Source of the DNA: Marinitoga hydrogenitolerans DSM 16785
GTDB lineage: Bacteria > Thermotogota > Thermotogae > Petrotogales > Petrotogaceae
Assembly (NCBI RefSeq): GCF_900129175.1
Contig: NZ_FQUI01000005.1
Location: forward strand, 1 to 42,793
Direction: 5' to 3'
DNA: 42,793 nt
The notes under the pieces are model-generated. The model saw nothing but the letters and a program-made list of their open reading frames with translations, did no database searches and was not told the DNA's origin. The translations under genes were made by a program, and so were the position numbers. Positions 1 to 42,793 of this stretch are shown here, piece after piece; within the stretch, counting starts at the first letter, position 1; each line of letters opens with the position of its first letter.

Positions 1-95
1 ATTATAAGTGTTATGGATGATGTTAGGTGTAAATGGTAAAATAAAAAAGAACAAAAAGAGGAAAATAAAAATGAACAAAATAGATAAAAAAACAA
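1..95. repeat. 95-bp exact terminal direct repeat, left copy
   Basis: These 95 bases are identical to 42699-42793. This is either the overlap left by assembling a circular molecule or a true direct repeat. The sequence is AT-rich and has no convincing reading frame of its own. Its first 13 bases (ATTATAAGTGTTA) occur again at 209-221. Confidence 0.97.
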
Positions 96-244
96 AGAAA
101 CAGTTTTAATCATCCATATTGGAATATATAAAAATATTGCAAGATACTCGAGATAGATAAAATAATTAGATATTTTATTTATTAATAAAAGATAATGAAA
201 AAGACGATATTATAAGTGTTAATATTTCAGAGGTTGGTGGTAAT
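1..244. other. Non-coding or decayed leader of the window
   Basis: No intact gene is visible. Short peptides in all frames are broken by stops. The frame that leads into the kinase pseudogene is open from about 170 but has no start before the TTG at 245. It may be remains of a gene upstream of the kinase; I cannot assign it. Confidence 0.5.
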
Positions 245-597
245 TTGAAAAAAATATTGACTATAAGGGAAATGTTAATTGATTTTATATGTTTGGATAA
301 AAATAAAGATTTATCAAAAGGAGTTAGTTTTGAAAAAAAAGCTGGTGGAGCTCCAGCAAATGTTGCCGCTGTTGTATCTCTTTTAGGTGGGGAAAGTTCG
401 ATTTTAGGAAATGTAGGAAATGATTCTTTGGGTATTTTTCTAGTAAATAAGATGAAGGAATATAATGTAGATACTTCTCTAAAGGAGAAAAAGATTATTT
501 TAAGATTGCTAAGTTTGCTAATGAAGTAGGAGCATTGGTTTGTACAAAAAAAGGAGCGTTAACAGCTTTAGAGGATATAAGAAAAAGGGAGATTTAA
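245..597 (+). pseudogene. PfkB-family sugar kinase (fructokinase-like), internally deleted and frameshifted
   Basis: The TTG start at 245 follows a GAGGTTGGTGG ribosome site. The first ~78 codons give a good PfkB N-terminus: a substrate-binding EMLIDF region, then KAGGAPANVAAVVSLLGG and a GNVGNDSLG motif. Around 485-492 the reading shifts frame, and 490-597 encodes a typical kinase C-terminus (AKFANEVGALVCTKKGALTA) ending with TAA at 595-597. Family members are about 310-320 residues, so roughly 200 central residues are missing, including the catalytic GAGD loop. The two ends are still well conserved, so the deletion looks recent. The gene cannot make an active ribokinase-type enzyme. Confidence 0.85.
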
Positions 598-607
598 CTC
601 CCTTTTT
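582..607. terminator. Bidirectional intrinsic terminator
   Basis: A perfect 10-bp stem (AAAAAGGGAG / CTCCCTTTTT) with a 6-base loop lies between the convergent kinase remnant and the dehydrogenase. It overlaps the ends of both. The A-run and T-run make it usable from either strand. Confidence 0.85.
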
Positions 608-1586
608 AAATTATAACATTTTGATTTAGTGTTCCGTTTTTAAAATTGTTAATATTTTCTAATGTGGTTTCAGCAATATTAGTTAAAGCTTCTTGAGTGA
701 AAAAACCTTGATGACCAGTAATTAATACATTTGGAAATGTAGTTAGTCTAAGAAATGTTTTATCATCAATGATTTCTTCTGATAAATCTTCAAAGAAAAT
801 ATTTTCTTCTTCTTCATAAACATCTAATCCAAGATAGCCTATTTTTTTTGATTTCAATCCATCTATTACAGCTTTTGTATCTATTAAACCTCCGCGGCTT
901 GTATTTATTATCATTACACCCTTTTTCATCAAATTAATTGTATTTTTATTTATGATATGGTATGTATCTTTATTTAAAGGACAGTGTAAAGAAATAATAT
1001 CTGATTTTTCAAATAATGTATTTAAATTAACATATTCTCCAATAAACTCATCATTTGGAAATTTATCATATCCTAAAATTTTCATGCCAAATCCTTTTAA
1101 AATGTTTGCAGTAATTCTTCCGATTTTTCCAGTGCCAATTATACCCACAATTTTTCCATGCAGATCGAACCCTAATAAACCATCAAGTGAAAAATTATTT
1201 TCTCTTATTCTTAAATAAGATTTATGAATTTTTCTATTTAATGAAAGAATTAAAGCTATTGTATGTTCAGCAACAGCGTATGGTGAATATTTCGGAACAT
1301 GTACGACTTTTATGTTATATTTTTTTGCAGCTGAAATATCGACATGGTTAAATCCAGCAGATCTTAAGGCAATTAGTTTTATTCCGTTTTCTTTTAGTAT
1401 TTTGATTACTTTTTTGTTTAGATCATCGTTTACAAAAGCACAAACAACATCAAAACCTTTTGCTAAAATAGCAGTTTTTTCATTTAATTTTGATTCAAAA
1501 TATTTAATATCAAAATTATATTTTTCATTTAATTTATTAAAAAAATCCATATCATATTTTTTTGTGCTAAAAAAAGCAATTTTCAT
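606..1586 (-). CDS. D-2-hydroxyacid dehydrogenase (D-lactate dehydrogenase-like)
   Basis: This is a 326-residue NAD-dependent oxidoreductase of the D-isomer 2-hydroxyacid dehydrogenase family, most like fermentative D-lactate dehydrogenases that reduce pyruvate to D-lactate in the cytoplasm. The nucleotide-binding GTGKIG motif is at 151-156, followed by the acidic YDKF region. The catalytic triad is visible: Arg231 in NTSRGG, Glu258 in DVYEEE and His292 in TGHQG. Length is normal. The start follows GGGAGAGG. It stands alone as a minus-strand gene, convergent with the kinase remnant and divergent from the mannosidase. Related 2-hydroxyacids are possible substrates; the LRSAGFNHVD segment favours lactate dehydrogenase. 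Confidence 0.9.
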   Translation of the reverse strand: MKIAFFSTKKYDMDFFNKLNEKYNFDIKYFESKLNEKTAILAKGFDVVCAFVNDDLNKKVIKILKENGIKLIALRSAGFNHVDISAAKKYNIKVVHVPKYSPYAVAEHTIALILSLNRKIHKSYLRIRENNFSLDGLLGFDLHGKIVGIIGTGKIGRITANILKGFGMKILGYDKFPNDEFIGEYVNLNTLFEKSDIISLHCPLNKDTYHIINKNTINLMKKGVMIINTSRGGLIDTKAVIDGLKSKKIGYLGLDVYEEEENIFFEDLSEEIIDDKTFLRLTTFPNVLITGHQGFFTQEALTNIAETTLENINNFKNGTLNQNVII

Positions 1587-1791
1587 ATATATCCTCTCCC
1601 TTTTGAATTAAATAATAATAGAATAATATGTTTTTAATCAACTATATTATAGCAAATATACTTTTCATATAATTTATAATCATATTACGACTTTTTTTGT
1701 CAAGATTAAAATAGATTTATTTTTATGTGATAAAATAATTATAATAAGAAAAGAATAAAGTCAAGTGAAAATTTTTATTAGGGGGGATATT

Positions 1792-10301: not shown

Positions 10302-10531
10302 TTTTATATCTGACGTCAAGCAAGTCTCGATGTATTTGTCAAGTGAATAAAGGATCAGAATATAGTTGAAAAATGAGACGGAAAAATGTCAAAACTTAAT
10401 TTTGATATTATAATTAAAAGTGCCCACGCTTTTGGGGAGGCGTGGGCAGGGAGATACTGGGATGATGTTTTCTCCTTACTTTTGCAGATGGTAGCCCCAC
10501 CCCGCATTAAATGGATTAGTAAAAACACGTA
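10302..10531. other. Presumed prophage left junction (attL region)
   Basis: This 230-bp gap separates the last host-like gene from the serine recombinase. Large serine recombinases usually lie next to their att site, so the attachment core should be here. A short core cannot be picked out without the other junction. The gap also contains the GC-rich foldable element at 10421-10505. Confidence 0.45.
10421..10505. ncRNA. Candidate structured RNA or DNA element
   Basis: The stretch is far more GC-rich than its surroundings, a usual mark of structured RNA in AT-rich thermophiles. A 9-bp stem TGCCCACGC (10421-10429) / GCGTGGGCA (10440-10448) has a loop containing GGGG. A second stem GGAGA (10450-10454) / TCTCC (10471-10475) follows. 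GCCCC (10494-10498) could pair with the first loop as a pseudoknot. It resembles no riboswitch or RNA family I recognise. The strand is undetermined. Confidence 0.4.
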
Positions 10532-12001
10532 TTATTCAAACTGTTTGAATTTTACTTCAATATACTTATCTTTATAAACGATAATCTGTTCAATTAATTG
10601 ATTATAGATTTCTATTAATTTATCCTCATCATAATTTTCAAGAGCTTCTATTTTTTCTTTCCATTTTTTTCTCAAATTCTCAGGTGTTTCTTCAACAATA
10701 TTAACATTAGACATTTTTATTTTATTTATTAGATCATTCTTTTCTTTCATCAAAATTTCATTTTCTTTTTTTATTTCATCATTTATAATTCCAGATTTTA
10801 TTGCCGTTGTTAAATTTATTAATTGTTCTTCAACTTCTTCCAACCTTTTTCTTAAGGCAACAATTTTATCGTTTTCAACGTTGCTTTTTAACTTTTTAAT
10901 ATAATTAATTGTTTCTGCAAAATCTTCCCAAAATTCTTCATCATTAAAATCTAATTTTAATAATTGATGTTTTACACGCAAAAAAACTTCTCTCTCTATT
11001 TTACTTTTAGATATACCAAGATATGTTCTTGTTTTTCCGTATTGCCAAGCAGAAGAAACATAACTTGGAGTTTTACCACCAGAACCAAGCATTCTATCTC
11101 CGAATTCTGTATATATTAATCCTTTTAATAAATATTTATTTTTTGTCAATGCAGAAGTCAATTTTCCATTCTTTTTATTTACTTCTTCAAAAACTTCTTT
11201 AGGAATAATAGGATCAACAAAATTTTCAATTATAATAGCATCTTTTAATTCTTCTTTCCTTTTTCTACCACGCTTTGTTCCCTTGCCATAAATGTATATT
11301 CCAGTATATAATGGGTTATTAACCATATCAAGAATTGTAGATGCTTTCCATGGATTACCTCGAGCGTTTTTTATACCTCGATCATTCAATCTTTTAGCAA
11401 TTTCAGAATATCCGATATTTTTTAATCTTAATTCGAAAATTTCTCTAACTACTTTTGCTTGTTCTTCATTTATCTTTAATTTTCTTCTTTTTTTCCCTTC
11501 CTCGTCAATAATTTGATAACTATCGAAACCATAAGGAGGATTTCCTCCCATCCAATATTTTTTTGATGCTATATCTTTCATTCGCATTTTAGTTCTTTGT
11601 GAAATCATTTCCCCTTCTAATGTATATGAAGCCAGAATAATCGTTCTTGTAAAACGTCCTTGAGGAGTACTTACATCAAAGGGTTCTAATGCAGCAATGA
11701 CAAGAACATTGTAATTTTTTTCTAAATCTTGGATTATTATTTGCCCATCAATTCCAGCTCTTGAAAAACGATCATACTTTTCAACAAGGATTACATCATA
11801 TTTTCCTTTATAAGCATTTTCTAGAAGAACATCTAATTGTTCTCTTTTCATTTTTTTACCAGAGTCTTTATCTGAAAAATAGTCAACTATTTTAAATCCA
11901 TATTGTTTTGCAAAATTTTCTATTGTTTTGAATTGTCCTTCAATTGAAATTTTTGATTGATCCTTTGTCGAAACTCTTGCATAAGCAGCAGCTTTTTTCA
12001 T
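10532..12001 (-). CDS. Large serine recombinase (phage integrase), cysteine-free
   Basis: A 489-residue site-specific recombinase that should integrate and excise the prophage. The N-terminal resolvase domain has the nucleophile Ser11 in YARVSTKDQ and the DRFSR motif at 77-81. A recombinase domain follows (about 155-265), then the region that normally forms the zinc beta-ribbon (LLKGLIYTEFGDRM at 291-304) and a long coiled coil (about 365-430). The zinc-ribbon position has no cysteines, and the whole protein contains none. It starts inside the stop of a 54-codon upstream gene. All its neighbours to 18086 are on the same strand, forming the lysogeny arm. Confidence 0.93.
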   Translation of the reverse strand: MKKAAAYARVSTKDQSKISIEGQFKTIENFAKQYGFKIVDYFSDKDSGKKMKREQLDVLLENAYKGKYDVILVEKYDRFSRAGIDGQIIIQDLEKNYNVLVIAALEPFDVSTPQGRFTRTIILASYTLEGEMISQRTKMRMKDIASKKYWMGGNPPYGFDSYQIIDEEGKKRRKLKINEEQAKVVREIFELRLKNIGYSEIAKRLNDRGIKNARGNPWKASTILDMVNNPLYTGIYIYGKGTKRGRKRKEELKDAIIIENFVDPIIPKEVFEEVNKKNGKLTSALTKNKYLLKGLIYTEFGDRMLGSGGKTPSYVSSAWQYGKTRTYLGISKSKIEREVFLRVKHQLLKLDFNDEEFWEDFAETINYIKKLKSNVENDKIVALRKRLEEVEEQLINLTTAIKSGIINDEIKKENEILMKEKNDLINKIKMSNVNIVEETPENLRKKWKEKIEALENYDEDKLIEIYNQLIEQIIVYKDKYIEVKFKQFE

Positions 12002-21829: not shown

Positions 21830-22312
21830 ATGGGAGAAAAAACTTTTTTAATTAAAGAAAAAACAATTAATGGGTTAAAAGAAATGAAAAAAAACGAAAA
21901 TGTGGATTATGGAAAACTAGCAGATAAAATAGCAGAACTAAAAGAAATGGAAGATAAATTAAAAGCTCGTAGAGTTGAATTACAAAAGAAACTTACAGAA
22001 CAATTGCCAAGACCTTTAGATAAAGCAACATTATATGTAGAAGGCTCTAAAGCAAAACTAAAAGTATCATGGACTGAAAGTTATAAGATTAGTCAAAAAG
22101 AAGCTAAGATTTTTGCTGAAAGATATCCAAGAGTAGCCCAAAAAGTTTTTTCTATTACTTATAAGCCAAAAAAGAGTAGCATATCAACAATGGAAAGAAC
22201 TATTAAGGATGCTCCTGAATACGAAAAGCCATTACTTGAATTAAAACAAATAATAAAAATAGAAGAAGACGTAAGAGTTTCAATAGAAAAGGCAGGTGAA
22301 AAAGATGAGTGA
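21830..22312 (+). CDS. Early protein paired with RecT
   Basis: A 160-residue protein. Residues 25-60 form a strong coiled coil (LADKIAELKEMEDKLKARRV). A beta region (LYVEGSKAKLKVSWTESYKI) and helices follow. Its last codons overlap the start of the RecT gene by 8 bases, so the two are coupled. The place next to a single-strand annealing protein is often held by an exonuclease or Gam-like inhibitor; I see no exonuclease motif. A Gam-like role is possible only by analogy. Confidence 0.65.
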   Translation: MGEKTFLIKEKTINGLKEMKKNENVDYGKLADKIAELKEMEDKLKARRVELQKKLTEQLPRPLDKATLYVEGSKAKLKVSWTESYKISQKEAKIFAERYPRVAQKVFSITYKPKKSSISTMERTIKDAPEYEKPLLELKQIIKIEEDVRVSIEKAGEKDE

Positions 22313-23186
22313 AATTAAACCTGTCGAGTCAAAAGAAATAAAATTTTCAAGCGAAGAAGTTCAATTAATAAAAGAAACTGTTGCTAAAGGCACAACAGAT
22401 GTAGAATTTAGATTTTTTTTGGAGTTAGCTAAACGTTATGACTTGGATCCGTTTAAAAAACAAATTTGGTGCGTAAAGTATGGAAATTCACCGGCAACTA
22501 TTTTTACTGGAAGAGATGGATTTTTACATATTGCTCATAAGTCTGGTAAATTTGCAAGTTTAAAGACATTTGCTTTGGTTCTAGATAAAAATGGAGAAGT
22601 AAAGGAAGCTGATGTTTGTCCTGATCCTAGAAGATTAGTTGGAGCAAAATGTTATGTTTTTAGAAACGATTGGAAAGAACCTTTAGTTCAATCTGTTCTT
22701 TTAAGAGAATATAACACTGGGAAAAGCAATTGGGCAAAAATGCCAGAGACAATGATCAAAAAAGTTGCAGAATCTATGGCATTAAGAAAAGCTTTTGATG
22801 TCTCAGGATTATATGCTCCTGAAGAATTTGATCAAGTAAAAGAAGAACAATACACCGAAACAAAAAATATAAGAAAGCAAAAAACTATGTCAAAAAATAA
22901 TAAAAATATAAATCCACAATTGATTTTAGTTTTAAGAGAAAAAGTAAAAACTTTATCTGAAATGCTTGGTGTAAAAGAAGAAATGATATTGCACGAATTA
23001 GAAAGAAGAGTGAAAAAAACAATTGGAGAATTTACAAATGATGAAAGAAATCAAGCAATAAAATTTCTTATTAAATGGATTGAAAAAGAAGAAAAAGCAC
23101 AACAACCTGAAATAATAATTGAGGAACCATATAAAGAAGAGAATTTAATGGCAGAGGCAGCAAGATTATTTGAAGAAAACGTTTAG
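22305..23186 (+). CDS. RecT/Bet-family single-strand annealing protein
   Basis: A 293-residue recombinase that anneals complementary strands in phage recombination. The core (about 20-175) shows the Bet/RecT pattern: LELAKRYDLDPFKKQIWCVK, then ATIFTGRDGFLHIAHKSGKF and the end of the core MPETMIKKVAESMALRKAFD, followed by GLYAPEEFDQ. A lysine-rich linker leads to a helical C-terminal domain (about 205-293). The ATG at 22305 follows GGCAGGTG and overlaps the upstream gene. No dedicated exonuclease is visible in the window. Confidence 0.9.
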   Translation: MSEIKPVESKEIKFSSEEVQLIKETVAKGTTDVEFRFFLELAKRYDLDPFKKQIWCVKYGNSPATIFTGRDGFLHIAHKSGKFASLKTFALVLDKNGEVKEADVCPDPRRLVGAKCYVFRNDWKEPLVQSVLLREYNTGKSNWAKMPETMIKKVAESMALRKAFDVSGLYAPEEFDQVKEEQYTETKNIRKQKTMSKNNKNINPQLILVLREKVKTLSEMLGVKEEMILHELERRVKKTIGEFTNDERNQAIKFLIKWIEKEEKAQQPEIIIEEPYKEENLMAEAARLFEENV

Positions 23187-28669: not shown

Positions 28670-28744
28670 CAGGATATGGTGTTAATGGTAGCATTCCACA
28701 CTTGGGATGTGGAGGTGCAGGTTCGAATCCTGCTATCCTGACCA
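28670..28744 (+). tRNA. tRNA-Pro (anticodon UGG)
   Basis: A complete cloverleaf: acceptor CAGGATA/TATCCTG, D arm GTGT/GCAT, anticodon stem CCACA/TGTGG with loop CTTGGGA (TGG at 28703-28705), T arm GCAGG/CCTGC with TTCGAAT, discriminator A and encoded CCA (28742-28744). It reads CCA proline codons, frequent in AT-rich phage genes. It lies between early and late genes, not at an attachment site. Confidence 0.93.
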
Positions 28745-28786
28745 TTATCCCTCCTTGAAATAAATACCGGCACAATCCGGCATTTT

Positions 28787-28866
28787 ACCGGCATTCCTGC
28801 TTTAAAGAGACGGTGCTATTTAAATGTGCTGATCTCTTTAAGGTGTTAGTGAGTGCCGGTTTTTTT
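28787..28866 (+). ncRNA. Candidate structured RNA/leader ending in a terminator-like T-run
   Basis: ACCGGCA (28787-28793) pairs with TGCCGGT (28854-28860), followed by T-rich 28861-28866. Inside, TTAAAGAGA (28802-28810) pairs with TCTCTTTAA (28833-28841) around a loop with GTGCT-ATTTAAAT-GTGCT. The nested stems look like a folded RNA or a large terminator; as DNA they could mark a cos/pac site. Confidence 0.45.
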
Positions 28867-28880
28867 ATACTAATCAGAAT

Positions 28881-28902
28881 TATACTAATTTAAATTAGTA
28901 TA
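28881..28902. promoter_or_regulatory. 22-bp perfect palindrome upstream of terS
   Basis: TATACTAATTT/AAATTAGTATA is a perfect inverted repeat, flanked by AATCA and TGATT arms and an extra ATACTAAT copy at 28867. It is a probable protein-binding site controlling the terminase operon or used in packaging. Confidence 0.55.
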
Positions 28903-28948
28903 TTGATTATTTTTATTTTAAATGAGGAGATGAGAGAGGTGAGGTGAG

Positions 28949-37568: not shown

Positions 37569-38040
37569 TGATAATTTAATTTTTTTTAAAGAAGATACAA
37601 TCAGAACAATTGATTTAAGAAGGCAGGGTAAAGATGTTGAAACCCTGCCTTTTTTAATTTATTCCTGGACATTTGACAAAGAATTGAATTTGAAAAATAT
37701 TTTGCAACTAAAACCGTGGATACTAAAAAAAATCTTAAATAAAGCAATTGAAGGATATTTAACAATAACTAATATAAATGAAAAACAATTAGAATTGTTT
37801 ATAAAATCGACTTTTATATCAGATAAGATAATATTTACAGGGTTCAAAGAAAAAGAAATAGAACATTTAAAACAATGTTTAATTGCAAAAAATAACATTT
37901 TTGATCATAGAGGGAATATTATAAATTATCCCGAAGCTGGAGGATATCTTGATCAAAATGCTAAATATATGTATTTTCTTAATATATATAGAAAGGTTTT
38001 AATTGGAAAAATTAATGAAGAAAATAATAAAAGGCGGTGA
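37552..38040 (+). CDS. Tail assembly chaperone (second)
   Basis: A 162-residue protein (DTIRTIDLRRQGKDVETLPF, LIYSWTFDKELNLKNILQLK). It overlaps the end of the first chaperone gene, a place where many phages use ribosomal frameshifting. Here it has its own ATG with GAGG nine bases upstream, so separate initiation is enough. Its stop overlaps the tape-measure start region. Confidence 0.65.
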   Translation: MFLELDDNLIFFKEDTIRTIDLRRQGKDVETLPFLIYSWTFDKELNLKNILQLKPWILKKILNKAIEGYLTITNINEKQLELFIKSTFISDKIIFTGFKEKEIEHLKQCLIAKNNIFDHRGNIINYPEAGGYLDQNAKYMYFLNIYRKVLIGKINEENNKRR

Positions 38041-38045
38041 TAAAT

Positions 38046-41000
38046 GTGGCTAATACCGCAGAATTAAGCATATTATTACAAGCTAAAGATTATGCTTCTA
38101 AAGCCTTAAACTCAGTTACAGGAGCAATGAATAAATTAGAAAATGCGACTCAAAAAGCTGGTAGAAGTTTTCAACAATTTAGAAACTCAATGAATGAAAT
38201 AACCAAATATGCAAAATATGCTTTAGGAGCAATAACTGCAACAGGTACAGCAATAGTTGCTTTTGGAAAAGATACAGAAAAGGCTATGGCAAACGCTTCT
38301 ACAATGTTTGGAGTAGCGGGAAAAACATTTGAAGAACAACTTGGAAATAAAGTGGCTAAAATATCAAAAAAATATGGAATATCTTTAAAAAATATGTGGG
38401 ATGCTACATATACATTAGGAAGTGCAGGGATAGCACTAAAAGATGTTCCTATAGTATTAGAACAAGTTGCTAAAGCTTCAGTTGCAGGTGGAGCGGATAT
38501 AAATATAGCCTTTGAAGGTGCAATAAAGCAAATAAAAGGTTTTGGTCTTTCAATACAAGATTTAGAAAAAGTTTTTGCAGTACAATTTCAGGCAGTGAAA
38601 TATGGACTTTTAAATTATGAACAATTAGCACAATATATACCTGAAATTTCTGCTTCTGCAAGAAGTTTAGGTGAAAATTGGAAAACAGCAACAGCAACAT
38701 TTGCGACTTTGACAAAATATATGCCGGATGCATCTCAGGCAGCTAATGCATTACAAAATGCTTATGATGAATTGACACAAAAATCAGATCAATTAACAAA
38801 AGCAGGAATAAAACTTTATAAAGATGGTAAATTTATAGGTTTTGTAAATGTTATAGAACAATTACACAATCAATTGAGAGGAAAAACAAATAAAGAAGTA
38901 GCTGAATTCATAAATCAATTACAACTTTCAGATACAGCAAGACAGGCGATTGTAAATCTTGTTAATAATTTTGATGATTTAAAGAATATAACAAACTCGG
39001 TTACAGATGATGTTTCCGCATTGAATGAAATGTATATAAAACAAACATCTACTTTGGAATTTCAGTTAAGGAAATTATTTGTAGTATTAGATAATCTAAA
39101 ACAGAGCATATATAATGCATTTAAAGGAACGTTAATACAATGGATTCAGAAAACAATTATATGGTTTCAAGGATTAAACAGATGGATCAGTGAAAATAAG
39201 GAAAAATTTGTTAAACTTATAAGTGCAATAACAAGATTATTAGTAGCAGTCGTAATATTCAATATGATAATCAACGTCATGAGTAAATTAGGAAGTATTA
39301 TAAGTTCTCTTTCTAATCCTTTTACGTGGCTTCTAATCGCATTTGGTACTTGGTTTGCTAATTTAGAAAAAGCAGAAAGGATGAAAGTTTTACAAACAAT
39401 ATTCAAGGCGTTTGGTGATATGGTCAATTGGATTGGTGAACAATTTAAGAAAATTAAAGAATCAGGATTTATAAATTGGTTTTTAGGACTTTTCAAAGAA
39501 ATAGGAAAAAGAACATTTGATATAACGATAAATCTTGTAAAGGGTAGTGCAGAAAAATTATGGGATTGGTTTAAAACAGGAGTAAGACAAATTGGTATTT
39601 TCGCAATAAATGCAGGTTTTGCACTTTGGAGTTGGTTTAAGGAAAAAACACAAGAAATTTTAATTAACGTAAAACAAGGAGTAATAAAACTTTGGAGCTG
39701 GTTTGTAGATAAAATTCAAACAATAAAAGTTTTTTTAATTTCTGGAACAATAAATTTGTGGGACTGGTTCGTCAATGCGATAAAAATAATAAAATTGAAT
39801 GTTTTACAAGGCACTTTAAAACTTTGGGATTGGTTTTATGAAACATATAAAAACATAAAAATAAATTTAATTTCGGGTGCAATAAAGCTTTGGGGCTGGT
39901 TTTTAGAAGGTACAAGACAAATAAAAGTGGTTCTTCAAAATACAACTCAAAAAATAGTTTGGGCTGGAGAACAAGTAATGAAAATATCCTTAGAATATAT
40001 ACAAAACACAGCCAATATAGCAAAATGGATATTAAACGGCATGAAAGAAGTTGTTTTATATTTTATAGCAAATATTGGTAATTTGCCAAAATGGATTTTG
40101 GAAAATGCTTTAAATATCACACTAGCATTTATTTTAATTTATAAAAACATGTATGATTGGATAACTAAAAACACAAAACAAATACTTTTAGAAATAAATT
40201 TTGCATTTGCAAAAAAATCAATGAAAATTTGGAATTTCTTTCAAGATTTGATTAAAAACGCTTGGAAAAAGACAATACAATTCACAATAGATTTAATAAA
40301 AGGGAAAAATGAATTGGAAGAAAAACCGGTAAATCCCGAAGCAGATAAAACAATTAAAGAAAATCCTTATATAATAACAGGAGATACAACAGCTAAATTA
40401 ACTAATTCTGCTAATTTAACAACAACATTAAAAGGGGATATGCCTTTATCTACAACTCAATACGCATTAAGAATGGCAGGAATTTTTGGTAGTATAGGAG
40501 CAGGTGTTTTAACGTCAACAACTCTTTCAGGAGTTTTTCTTGAGCAAGCTTTAAAATATGCTCTTATGGGAGTTGGTTTTGCAACAGGTGGATATACAGG
40601 TAGTGGAGGGAAATATGATGTTGCAGGAGTAGTTCATAAAGGAGAGTATGTAATTCCAGCTTGGATGGTAAAAGAACATCCTGAATTAGTTGCATTACTT
40701 GAAAAGAAAAGAAAAGGATATGCAGAAGGTGGAGCTGTAGATGCAATAATAAAATACTTCTCCGGAACAGGAAATACAAATATAAGCGGTGATATAACCA
40801 TTACAAAAGATACAGTACTTGAACTCTTAAATTATGTTGTTAATTTTAAAGAGAGTGCAGAGAGTGAATCAGAAACAATAAAACAAGCTTTAGATAGCAT
40901 ATTCAATACTGAACAAAAGCAAGAAGAAAAACAAAAAACATTAATACAAATTTTAAACGAAAATCTACAATTATTTCAATCTTTATATCCTGAAACAAAA

Positions 41001-41966
41001 GCCTATTATGATTTTGAGAAAAAACAAGCAGGAAACTTATTCCAAATATTCAAAGGCGGATTTGATGTTTTAACAGGAAGTATAAGGAATATAGGTAGTT
41101 TAGTTGCTGATGGAATTGCAAAAACTCCATGGGCACAAAGTATTGCAAATTGGACAAAAAAACAGGTAAATTCTGCAGGACGAGCTATTGGCGGTGCTAT
41201 GTCTGGAGCTGGTAATGCATTAGGAAATCTCGGCAGTCAAATAAGTTTAGGTCCTGTTTTTGATCCAATATTGAATGGACTAAAAGGAATTTTCAGCGGT
41301 ATAACAGGGTTATTTGGGCAAATGTTCGGACCTATAGTTCAATCACTTATGAGTCTCGGAAATGTTGTTGCTATTCTTAACCCTATTAATACAATAATTG
41401 AAGCATTAATGGCAGTATTAGGTCCATTAATAAATGGAGCATTACAACCGTTTGTAAATATCCTTAAAGCTTTCGGGCAGATGTTAGGAACATTACTTGT
41501 GCCATTACTTAATCCGCTTTTTGCAGGTCTTCAAGCATTTGGAGCAATTTTGACATGGATATATAACGCAGTGCTCGTTCCTATCGGAAGAGGATTTTAC
41601 GTTATTTTTGGGATGGTTGCTAATGCGTTTAATTGGTTATACAATGTGGTTTCAGATGTGGTTCGAGGTTTAACTTTTGGAACAGTAAATATTGGAAAAA
41701 GAGCAGTAAAAAGTATGAATGCAATAATGAAAGAAGCAAATGAAAAAATAGCAAAAGTAGATATGAATGTGGAACAAAATGTAGAAAATTCTTACCAAAG
41801 TCAATATACTTCAACAGTTCAAAGAAGCGGTCCGGAAACAGTTAATAATTATATTACTTTGAACGCTGCAGATAGTTTTATTTTGGATCACAAACAAACA
41901 TTCAAAGAATTTTTAGCAGAGACAATACAAGAATTATATAATGAAGGACAAATTAAATTTGCATAA
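38046..41966 (+). CDS. Tail tape measure protein with 22-residue repeats
   Basis: About 1306 residues; it sets tail length and is a siphovirus hallmark. The N-terminal part is the TP901/Mu-type tape-measure domain (AISASARSLGENW-like ARSLGENWKTATATFATL). Membrane-like helices follow near 400-440. Residues about 505-725 consist of ten 22-residue repeats with LWDWF/LWSWF at the start of the first six. The C-terminal section has GGYTGSGGKYDVAGVVHKGE, YVIPAWM, found in many tape measures, then hydrophobic repeats rich in Gly/Leu/Pro. GTG at 38046 follows GGCGGTGATAAAT; GTG at 38037 is the alternative. Confidence 0.94.
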   Translation: MANTAELSILLQAKDYASKALNSVTGAMNKLENATQKAGRSFQQFRNSMNEITKYAKYALGAITATGTAIVAFGKDTEKAMANASTMFGVAGKTFEEQLGNKVAKISKKYGISLKNMWDATYTLGSAGIALKDVPIVLEQVAKASVAGGADINIAFEGAIKQIKGFGLSIQDLEKVFAVQFQAVKYGLLNYEQLAQYIPEISASARSLGENWKTATATFATLTKYMPDASQAANALQNAYDELTQKSDQLTKAGIKLYKDGKFIGFVNVIEQLHNQLRGKTNKEVAEFINQLQLSDTARQAIVNLVNNFDDLKNITNSVTDDVSALNEMYIKQTSTLEFQLRKLFVVLDNLKQSIYNAFKGTLIQWIQKTIIWFQGLNRWISENKEKFVKLISAITRLLVAVVIFNMIINVMSKLGSIISSLSNPFTWLLIAFGTWFANLEKAERMKVLQTIFKAFGDMVNWIGEQFKKIKESGFINWFLGLFKEIGKRTFDITINLVKGSAEKLWDWFKTGVRQIGIFAINAGFALWSWFKEKTQEILINVKQGVIKLWSWFVDKIQTIKVFLISGTINLWDWFVNAIKIIKLNVLQGTLKLWDWFYETYKNIKINLISGAIKLWGWFLEGTRQIKVVLQNTTQKIVWAGEQVMKISLEYIQNTANIAKWILNGMKEVVLYFIANIGNLPKWILENALNITLAFILIYKNMYDWITKNTKQILLEINFAFAKKSMKIWNFFQDLIKNAWKKTIQFTIDLIKGKNELEEKPVNPEADKTIKENPYIITGDTTAKLTNSANLTTTLKGDMPLSTTQYALRMAGIFGSIGAGVLTSTTLSGVFLEQALKYALMGVGFATGGYTGSGGKYDVAGVVHKGEYVIPAWMVKEHPELVALLEKKRKGYAEGGAVDAIIKYFSGTGNTNISGDITITKDTVLELLNYVVNFKESAESESETIKQALDSIFNTEQKQEEKQKTLIQILNENLQLFQSLYPETKAYYDFEKKQAGNLFQIFKGGFDVLTGSIRNIGSLVADGIAKTPWAQSIANWTKKQVNSAGRAIGGAMSGAGNALGNLGSQISLGPVFDPILNGLKGIFSGITGLFGQMFGPIVQSLMSLGNVVAILNPINTIIEALMAVLGPLINGALQPFVNILKAFGQMLGTLLVPLLNPLFAGLQAFGAILTWIYNAVLVPIGRGFYVIFGMVANAFNWLYNVVSDVVRGLTFGTVNIGKRAVKSMNAIMKEANEKIAKVDMNVEQNVENSYQSQYTSTVQRSGPETVNNYITLNAADSFILDHKQTFKEFLAETIQELYNEGQIKFA
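39558..40217 (+). repeat. Ten 66-bp units encoding 22-aa tape-measure repeats
   Basis: Units begin LWDWF, LWSWF, LWSWF, LWDWF, LWDWF and LWGWF, then IVW, AKW, PKW and YDW, always 22 codons apart. DNA identity is low, protein periodicity is strict. Twenty-two is twice the 11-residue period known from tape measures. Confidence 0.85.
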
Positions 41967-42615: not shown

Positions 42616-42641
42616 AAGAGCCTTAATCGGCTCTTTTTTTA
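42616..42641 (+). terminator. Terminator after the HEPN-like gene
   Basis: AAGAGCC-TTAATC-GGCTCTT followed by a T-run. It isolates the cargo gene from the next tail gene. Confidence 0.85.
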
Positions 42642-42662
42642 TTTAATTATGGAGGTGAAAAT

Positions 42663-42737
42663 ATGGCAAAAAGTGAAACAAGACCAAGCGAAATACAAAT
42701 TATAAGTGTTATGGATGATGTTAGGTGTAAATGGTAA
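42663..42737 (+). pseudogene. Truncated start of the next phage gene
   Basis: The ATG follows TGGAGGTGAAAAT. Only 24 codons are open (MAKSETRPSEIQIISVMDDV, then RCKW and stop). The last 13 codons lie in the terminal repeat. In siphoviruses a distal tail gene is expected here, so the frame is probably cut by the rearrangement or assembly join. Confidence 0.6.
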
Positions 42738-42793
42738 AATAAAAAAGAACAAAAAGAGGAAAATAAAAATGAACAAAATAGATAAAAAAACAA
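42699..42793. repeat. 95-bp exact terminal direct repeat, right copy
   Basis: Identical to 1-95 over its whole length. It starts inside the truncated phage gene and runs to the window end. Confidence 0.97.

Follow-up and report, generated by a model that had tools for sequence, protein, structure and literature searches.

Identical 95-base ends in a Marinitoga hydrogenitolerans scaffold very probably arise from an assembly loop between a prophage and an older prophage relic

When a stretch of bacterial DNA that carries both host genes and a prophage ends with exactly the bases with which it begins, does it represent a circular molecule? The stretch analyzed here, referred to as the window, consists of 42,793 nucleotides from Marinitoga hydrogenitolerans DSM 16785, and the original prediction from its sequence was that it closes on itself, as an assembled circle of 42,698 bp. 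Comparison of the window's own ends bore out the exact identity reaching both of them, given that positions 1–95 and 42699–42793 agree letter for letter and that no longer overlap exists; no further copy of the 95-mer was found within the window, and the likelihood of 95 matching bases arising by chance is negligible. The closure itself did not hold, because a search of the organism's own genome placed the window at positions 1–42793 of a 91,353-base scaffold (C5), in which 10 N at 42794–42803 are followed by 48,550 bases more. Nor is a circle of 42,698 bp supported, because the scaffold continues and the sister genome (G005) has the same order in one linear contig. A circular replicon should have identical ends, nothing that continues past them, and an overlap that either exceeds the word length (k) of the assembler or is spanned by reads. 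The identical ends are present here, but the post-gap piece overlaps positions 42630–42724 and then departs from the window, and the overlap equals the commonest one between contig ends, 95 bases. A circular plasmid or phage circle is rejected, as the scaffold goes on beyond the window, and the end identity is very probably the result of an assembly-graph loop in ordinary Marinitoga chromosomal DNA.

The place where the assembly branched can be read from the sequence on the far side of the gap. The post-gap piece opens with GCTCTTTTTTT...GATGATGTTAG, which is an exact prefix match, and the longest, to the 95 bases at window 42630–42724 (forward strand), the last k-mer before the true prophage and the loop part. 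Past these shared bases the post-gap piece reads AAAAGGAAAAGTG, completing a 114-aa tail-region gene, while past 42724 the window instead turns into GTGTAAATGG..., and the tail gene is broken off there. From 42725 on, Marinitoga camini virus 1 and 2 (MCV1, KP836355, and MCV2, KP836356) and M. lauensis all continue unlike the window, and their tail gene runs on as it does in the post-gap piece. The terminal 95 bases of the window are therefore composite, as 42699–42724 falls within the opening part of the intact prophage's 114-aa tail gene and 42725–42793 consists of 69 misjoined bases (69 = 95 − 26) belonging to the left edge of the window, namely a G and the beginning of an insertion sequence end of the IS21 type (both on the forward strand). 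This composition, together with the finding that five contig-end overlaps in the assembly are also of 95 bases, rules out a biological terminal repeat of 95 bp. The repeat proposed at the junction is nevertheless real as a direct repeat, although its length is 26 bp rather than 95: copy B is the stretch just mentioned in the opening part of the tail gene (locus B), and copy A, a relic of a prophage tail gene, occupies 1–26 on the forward strand (locus A), in the same place as in the sister genome.

The length of 95 bases is explained by the assembler. When 131 contig ends of the assembly were compared for exact end-to-end overlaps of at least 15 bases, seven were found, of which five measure 95, one 109, and one 126, with none below 95. 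The k of the assembler is 95 because all seven overlaps are at least that long and five are exactly so, and the same length thus recurs between unrelated contig ends and between the pieces before and after the gap. A published JGI recipe runs SPAdes with -k 25,55,95 and discards contigs shorter than 1 kb (PMC10586111), and this recipe, with its assembler and settings, probably lies behind the present assembly, the smallest contig of which has 1,133 bases. The length of the shared repeat, 26, is one more than the lowest k of that recipe (25 + 1). Terminal overlaps of k-mer length, a “direct terminal repeat”, are a feature of de Bruijn assemblies, and here likewise the overlap is as long as those of other contig ends; unlike in the plain case, the window contig is not an isolated circle and is scaffolded onward across 10 N. 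Exact end overlaps should accordingly not be taken as proof of circles or of “complete” elements, since in this instance the overlap equals k and the assembly continues.

A simple model accounts for the break points. Loci A and B have 26 bases in common, in the same orientation and 42,698 bases apart, and a link that joins the left side of B to the right side of A through these 26 bases predicts, at k = 95, the window start, the window end at 42793, and the post-gap start at 42630, all to the base; both 42630 and 42793 are observed, so that a repeat much shorter than the overlap suffices to place them. In this arithmetic the link adds 95 − 26 = 69 extra bases, and contigs start at the first base of the repeat and at the repeat end minus 94. 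A toy de Bruijn graph, built with the sister's left flank, gave a 164-base edge identical to window 42630–42793, a contig starting from window position 1, and the post-gap contig. Without the link, the graph was clean at k = 55 and 95, and at k = 25 the repeat formed one shared 26-base edge. As a genome containing only the two loci yields no link at k = 55 or 95, something further must have made the link, whether carry-over from a low k, chimeric reads, or real recombinant DNA, and we consider that one of the first two was probably the source. The course of events was very probably as follows: an old prophage relic at locus A and the intact prophage at locus B, at a distance of about 42.7 kb, carry the same 26 bases of a tail gene; the assembler, working at k = 95, ran through the prophage to the repeat, crossed into the right-hand sequence of locus A for 69 bases, and halted on meeting the opening 95-mer of its own contig; and scaffolding then bridged a gap of 10 N to the place where the prophage really goes on. 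Of the three readings in the original prediction, the one in which an assembly loop passes through a repeat and the 95 bases reflect the k-mer or overlap size is supported in detail by the contig-end overlaps, the post-gap start, and the graph model. The IS21-type element can be dismissed as the looping repeat because the 53 bases that it shares are fewer than k and the branch lies at the 26-bp phage match.

That locus A is truly a prophage relic is indicated by the sister genome, which is 94% identical over window 1–1700 and has the same arrangement of the locus at C5:3046 of its own assembly. To the left of the 26-mer, the sister carries a decayed start of the tail gene, and a copy of the end of the tape-measure gene is found 0.8 kb further left. 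The sister relic and the tail gene are 85–90% homologous over 88–159 bases, which rules out that the 26 bases are alike by chance, and immediately before the 26 shared bases the relic has a G where the prophage has an A. Among the contigs of at least 3 kb of the present genome, no sequence was found that flanks locus A on the left; this flank probably resembles that of the sister. In a sister contig of 72,091 bases that contains no N, the relic, a pfkB fragment, the prophage, and the right flank follow one another consecutively.

Subtracting 174 bases that are misjoined, N, or duplicated leaves the prophage as an integrated element of about 41.5 kb. Its left end bears the attL core GGTAGCCCCAC (10490–10500, forward strand), an 11-bp sequence common to attL, attR, and the attP of MCV2; the attR copy lies beyond the window at C5:52154–52164, in the 3′ end of a tRNA-Glu(CTC) gene (L009:12153–12227). 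A serine integrase is encoded at 10532–12001 on the reverse strand (Pfam Resolvase and Recombinase; PHROG 95, integrase), and it uses the 3′ end of this tRNA gene. The tail tape-measure protein of this intact prophage (PHROG 36688, PF10145) is encoded at 38037–41966 on the forward strand. The prophage had been thought to lack distal tail, fiber, and lysis genes, a view that is contradicted by the tail fiber, holin, and further prophage genes past the gap, at C5:42840–52083; the prophage is not defective in the way supposed, and the missing genes sit across the 10-N gap. To its right the chromosome resumes with genes that include, judging by their translations, recN and murB, and homologs of window 4.8–7.0 kb and of about C5:52.0–52.15 kb stand only 82 bp (G006), 1.0 kb (G003), and 2.0 kb (G001) apart in three relatives. 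The att cores flanking the element in the chromosome, at C5:10490 and 52154, and the collinear tail and lysis genes assign it to the MCV1/MCV2 group.

How probable, then, is it that some of the cells truly contain the junction, because 26 bp common to an active prophage and to the degraded remains of a related one drive duplication or excision of 42.7 kb? We would give this a slender chance overall, although, if true, it would mean that so short a match rearranges a 42.7-kb chromosomal segment in a thermophile. The form that survives best, although still unlikely, is a tandem duplication of the segment, carried by all cells or some of them and produced when the two 26-bp repeats recombined, with the junction being B-left/26 bp/A-right. 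The repeats are directly oriented, the joint would yield the same graph pieces, and assemblers normally prune low-coverage chimeric links; against it, homologous recombination would have had little to work with in 26 bp, and no duplication is seen in the linear contig of the sister, whose two copies of the repeat are not identical across the 26 bp. The tandem duplication suggested earlier would give an identical junction, but nothing requires such a duplication. More doubtful still is that recombination between these repeats released a 42,698-bp extrachromosomal circle, which would hold chromosomal genes and most of the prophage. Such a circle would have the joint as seen, but the scaffold ties both flanks of the window to the chromosome, and the prophage has att sites of its own, through which it would leave the chromosome as an element of about 41.5 kb that takes no host genes along. 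The absence of reported extrachromosomal DNA in two related M. camini strains (PMC5105104) also counts against a circle, and the idea of a real one, put forward in the original prediction, finds no support given the continuing scaffold and the linear order in the sister. Hardly to be credited is a second, near-identical prophage left part preceding locus A, whereby the junction would be true chromosomal sequence and the repeat long, because even though the contigs of at least 3 kb do not show what lies left of locus A, the contig would then open at the branch 95-mer (GCTCTTTT...) and not 69 bases later, and it opens exactly where the sister's relic diverges.

Next to copy A lies the relic of an IS21-type left end (28–100, forward strand), 53 bases of which are identical to contigs C22 and C69. 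Like ends in C22 and in two other genomes (G017 and G015) are located directly upstream of an istA-type gene, and that of G017 matches IstB_IS21 and, weakly, rve. The shared end TGTAAATGGTA... thus precedes an istA-type gene elsewhere, as in IS21-family elements, while the window, unlike full members of the family, has the end alone without a transposase gene. In contig C14 of the present genome (161–193), this end is represented by its first 33 bases alone, and a likely ribosome-binding site and a short ORF follow directly. The end is followed in the window by a solitary decayed CRISPR repeat (104–128, forward strand), in which 24–25 of 25 bases match the array repeats of G001 and the first repeat of C37. 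In G001, a long array (C1:384186–391817) with a spacing of about 66 bases adjoins the homologous pfkB gene, and C37 of the present genome ends at its first repeat (22289–22318) after an apparent cas1-cas2. In G002, too, a CRISPR repeat lies directly against an end of the IS21 type (C13, upstream of 1501), so that such elements may have entered or adjoined the array more than once. The first chromosomal gene in the window is a truncated pfkB-family sugar kinase, present as an N-terminal fragment (245–529, forward strand; Pfam PF00294, profile positions 1–80 of 302).

Among known phages, the closest are MCV1, MCV2, and Marinitoga phage MPV1 (OZ018341), with tail, holin, integrase, and att core collinear with the prophage; identity to MCV1 and MCV2 is 90–97% across long stretches, and the matches to MPV1 are partial and weaker (78–83%). 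The prophage differs from all three in being mosaic, with its early region matched only in part, and in its size, the known phages being 50.3–53.4 kb long. It carries a tRNA-Pro gene within window 28670–28944, where no Rfam family other than tRNA was found, and the 199 bases that follow the gene (28746–28944) recur, inverted and 95% identical, in the relic locus of the sister (L109:938–1136).
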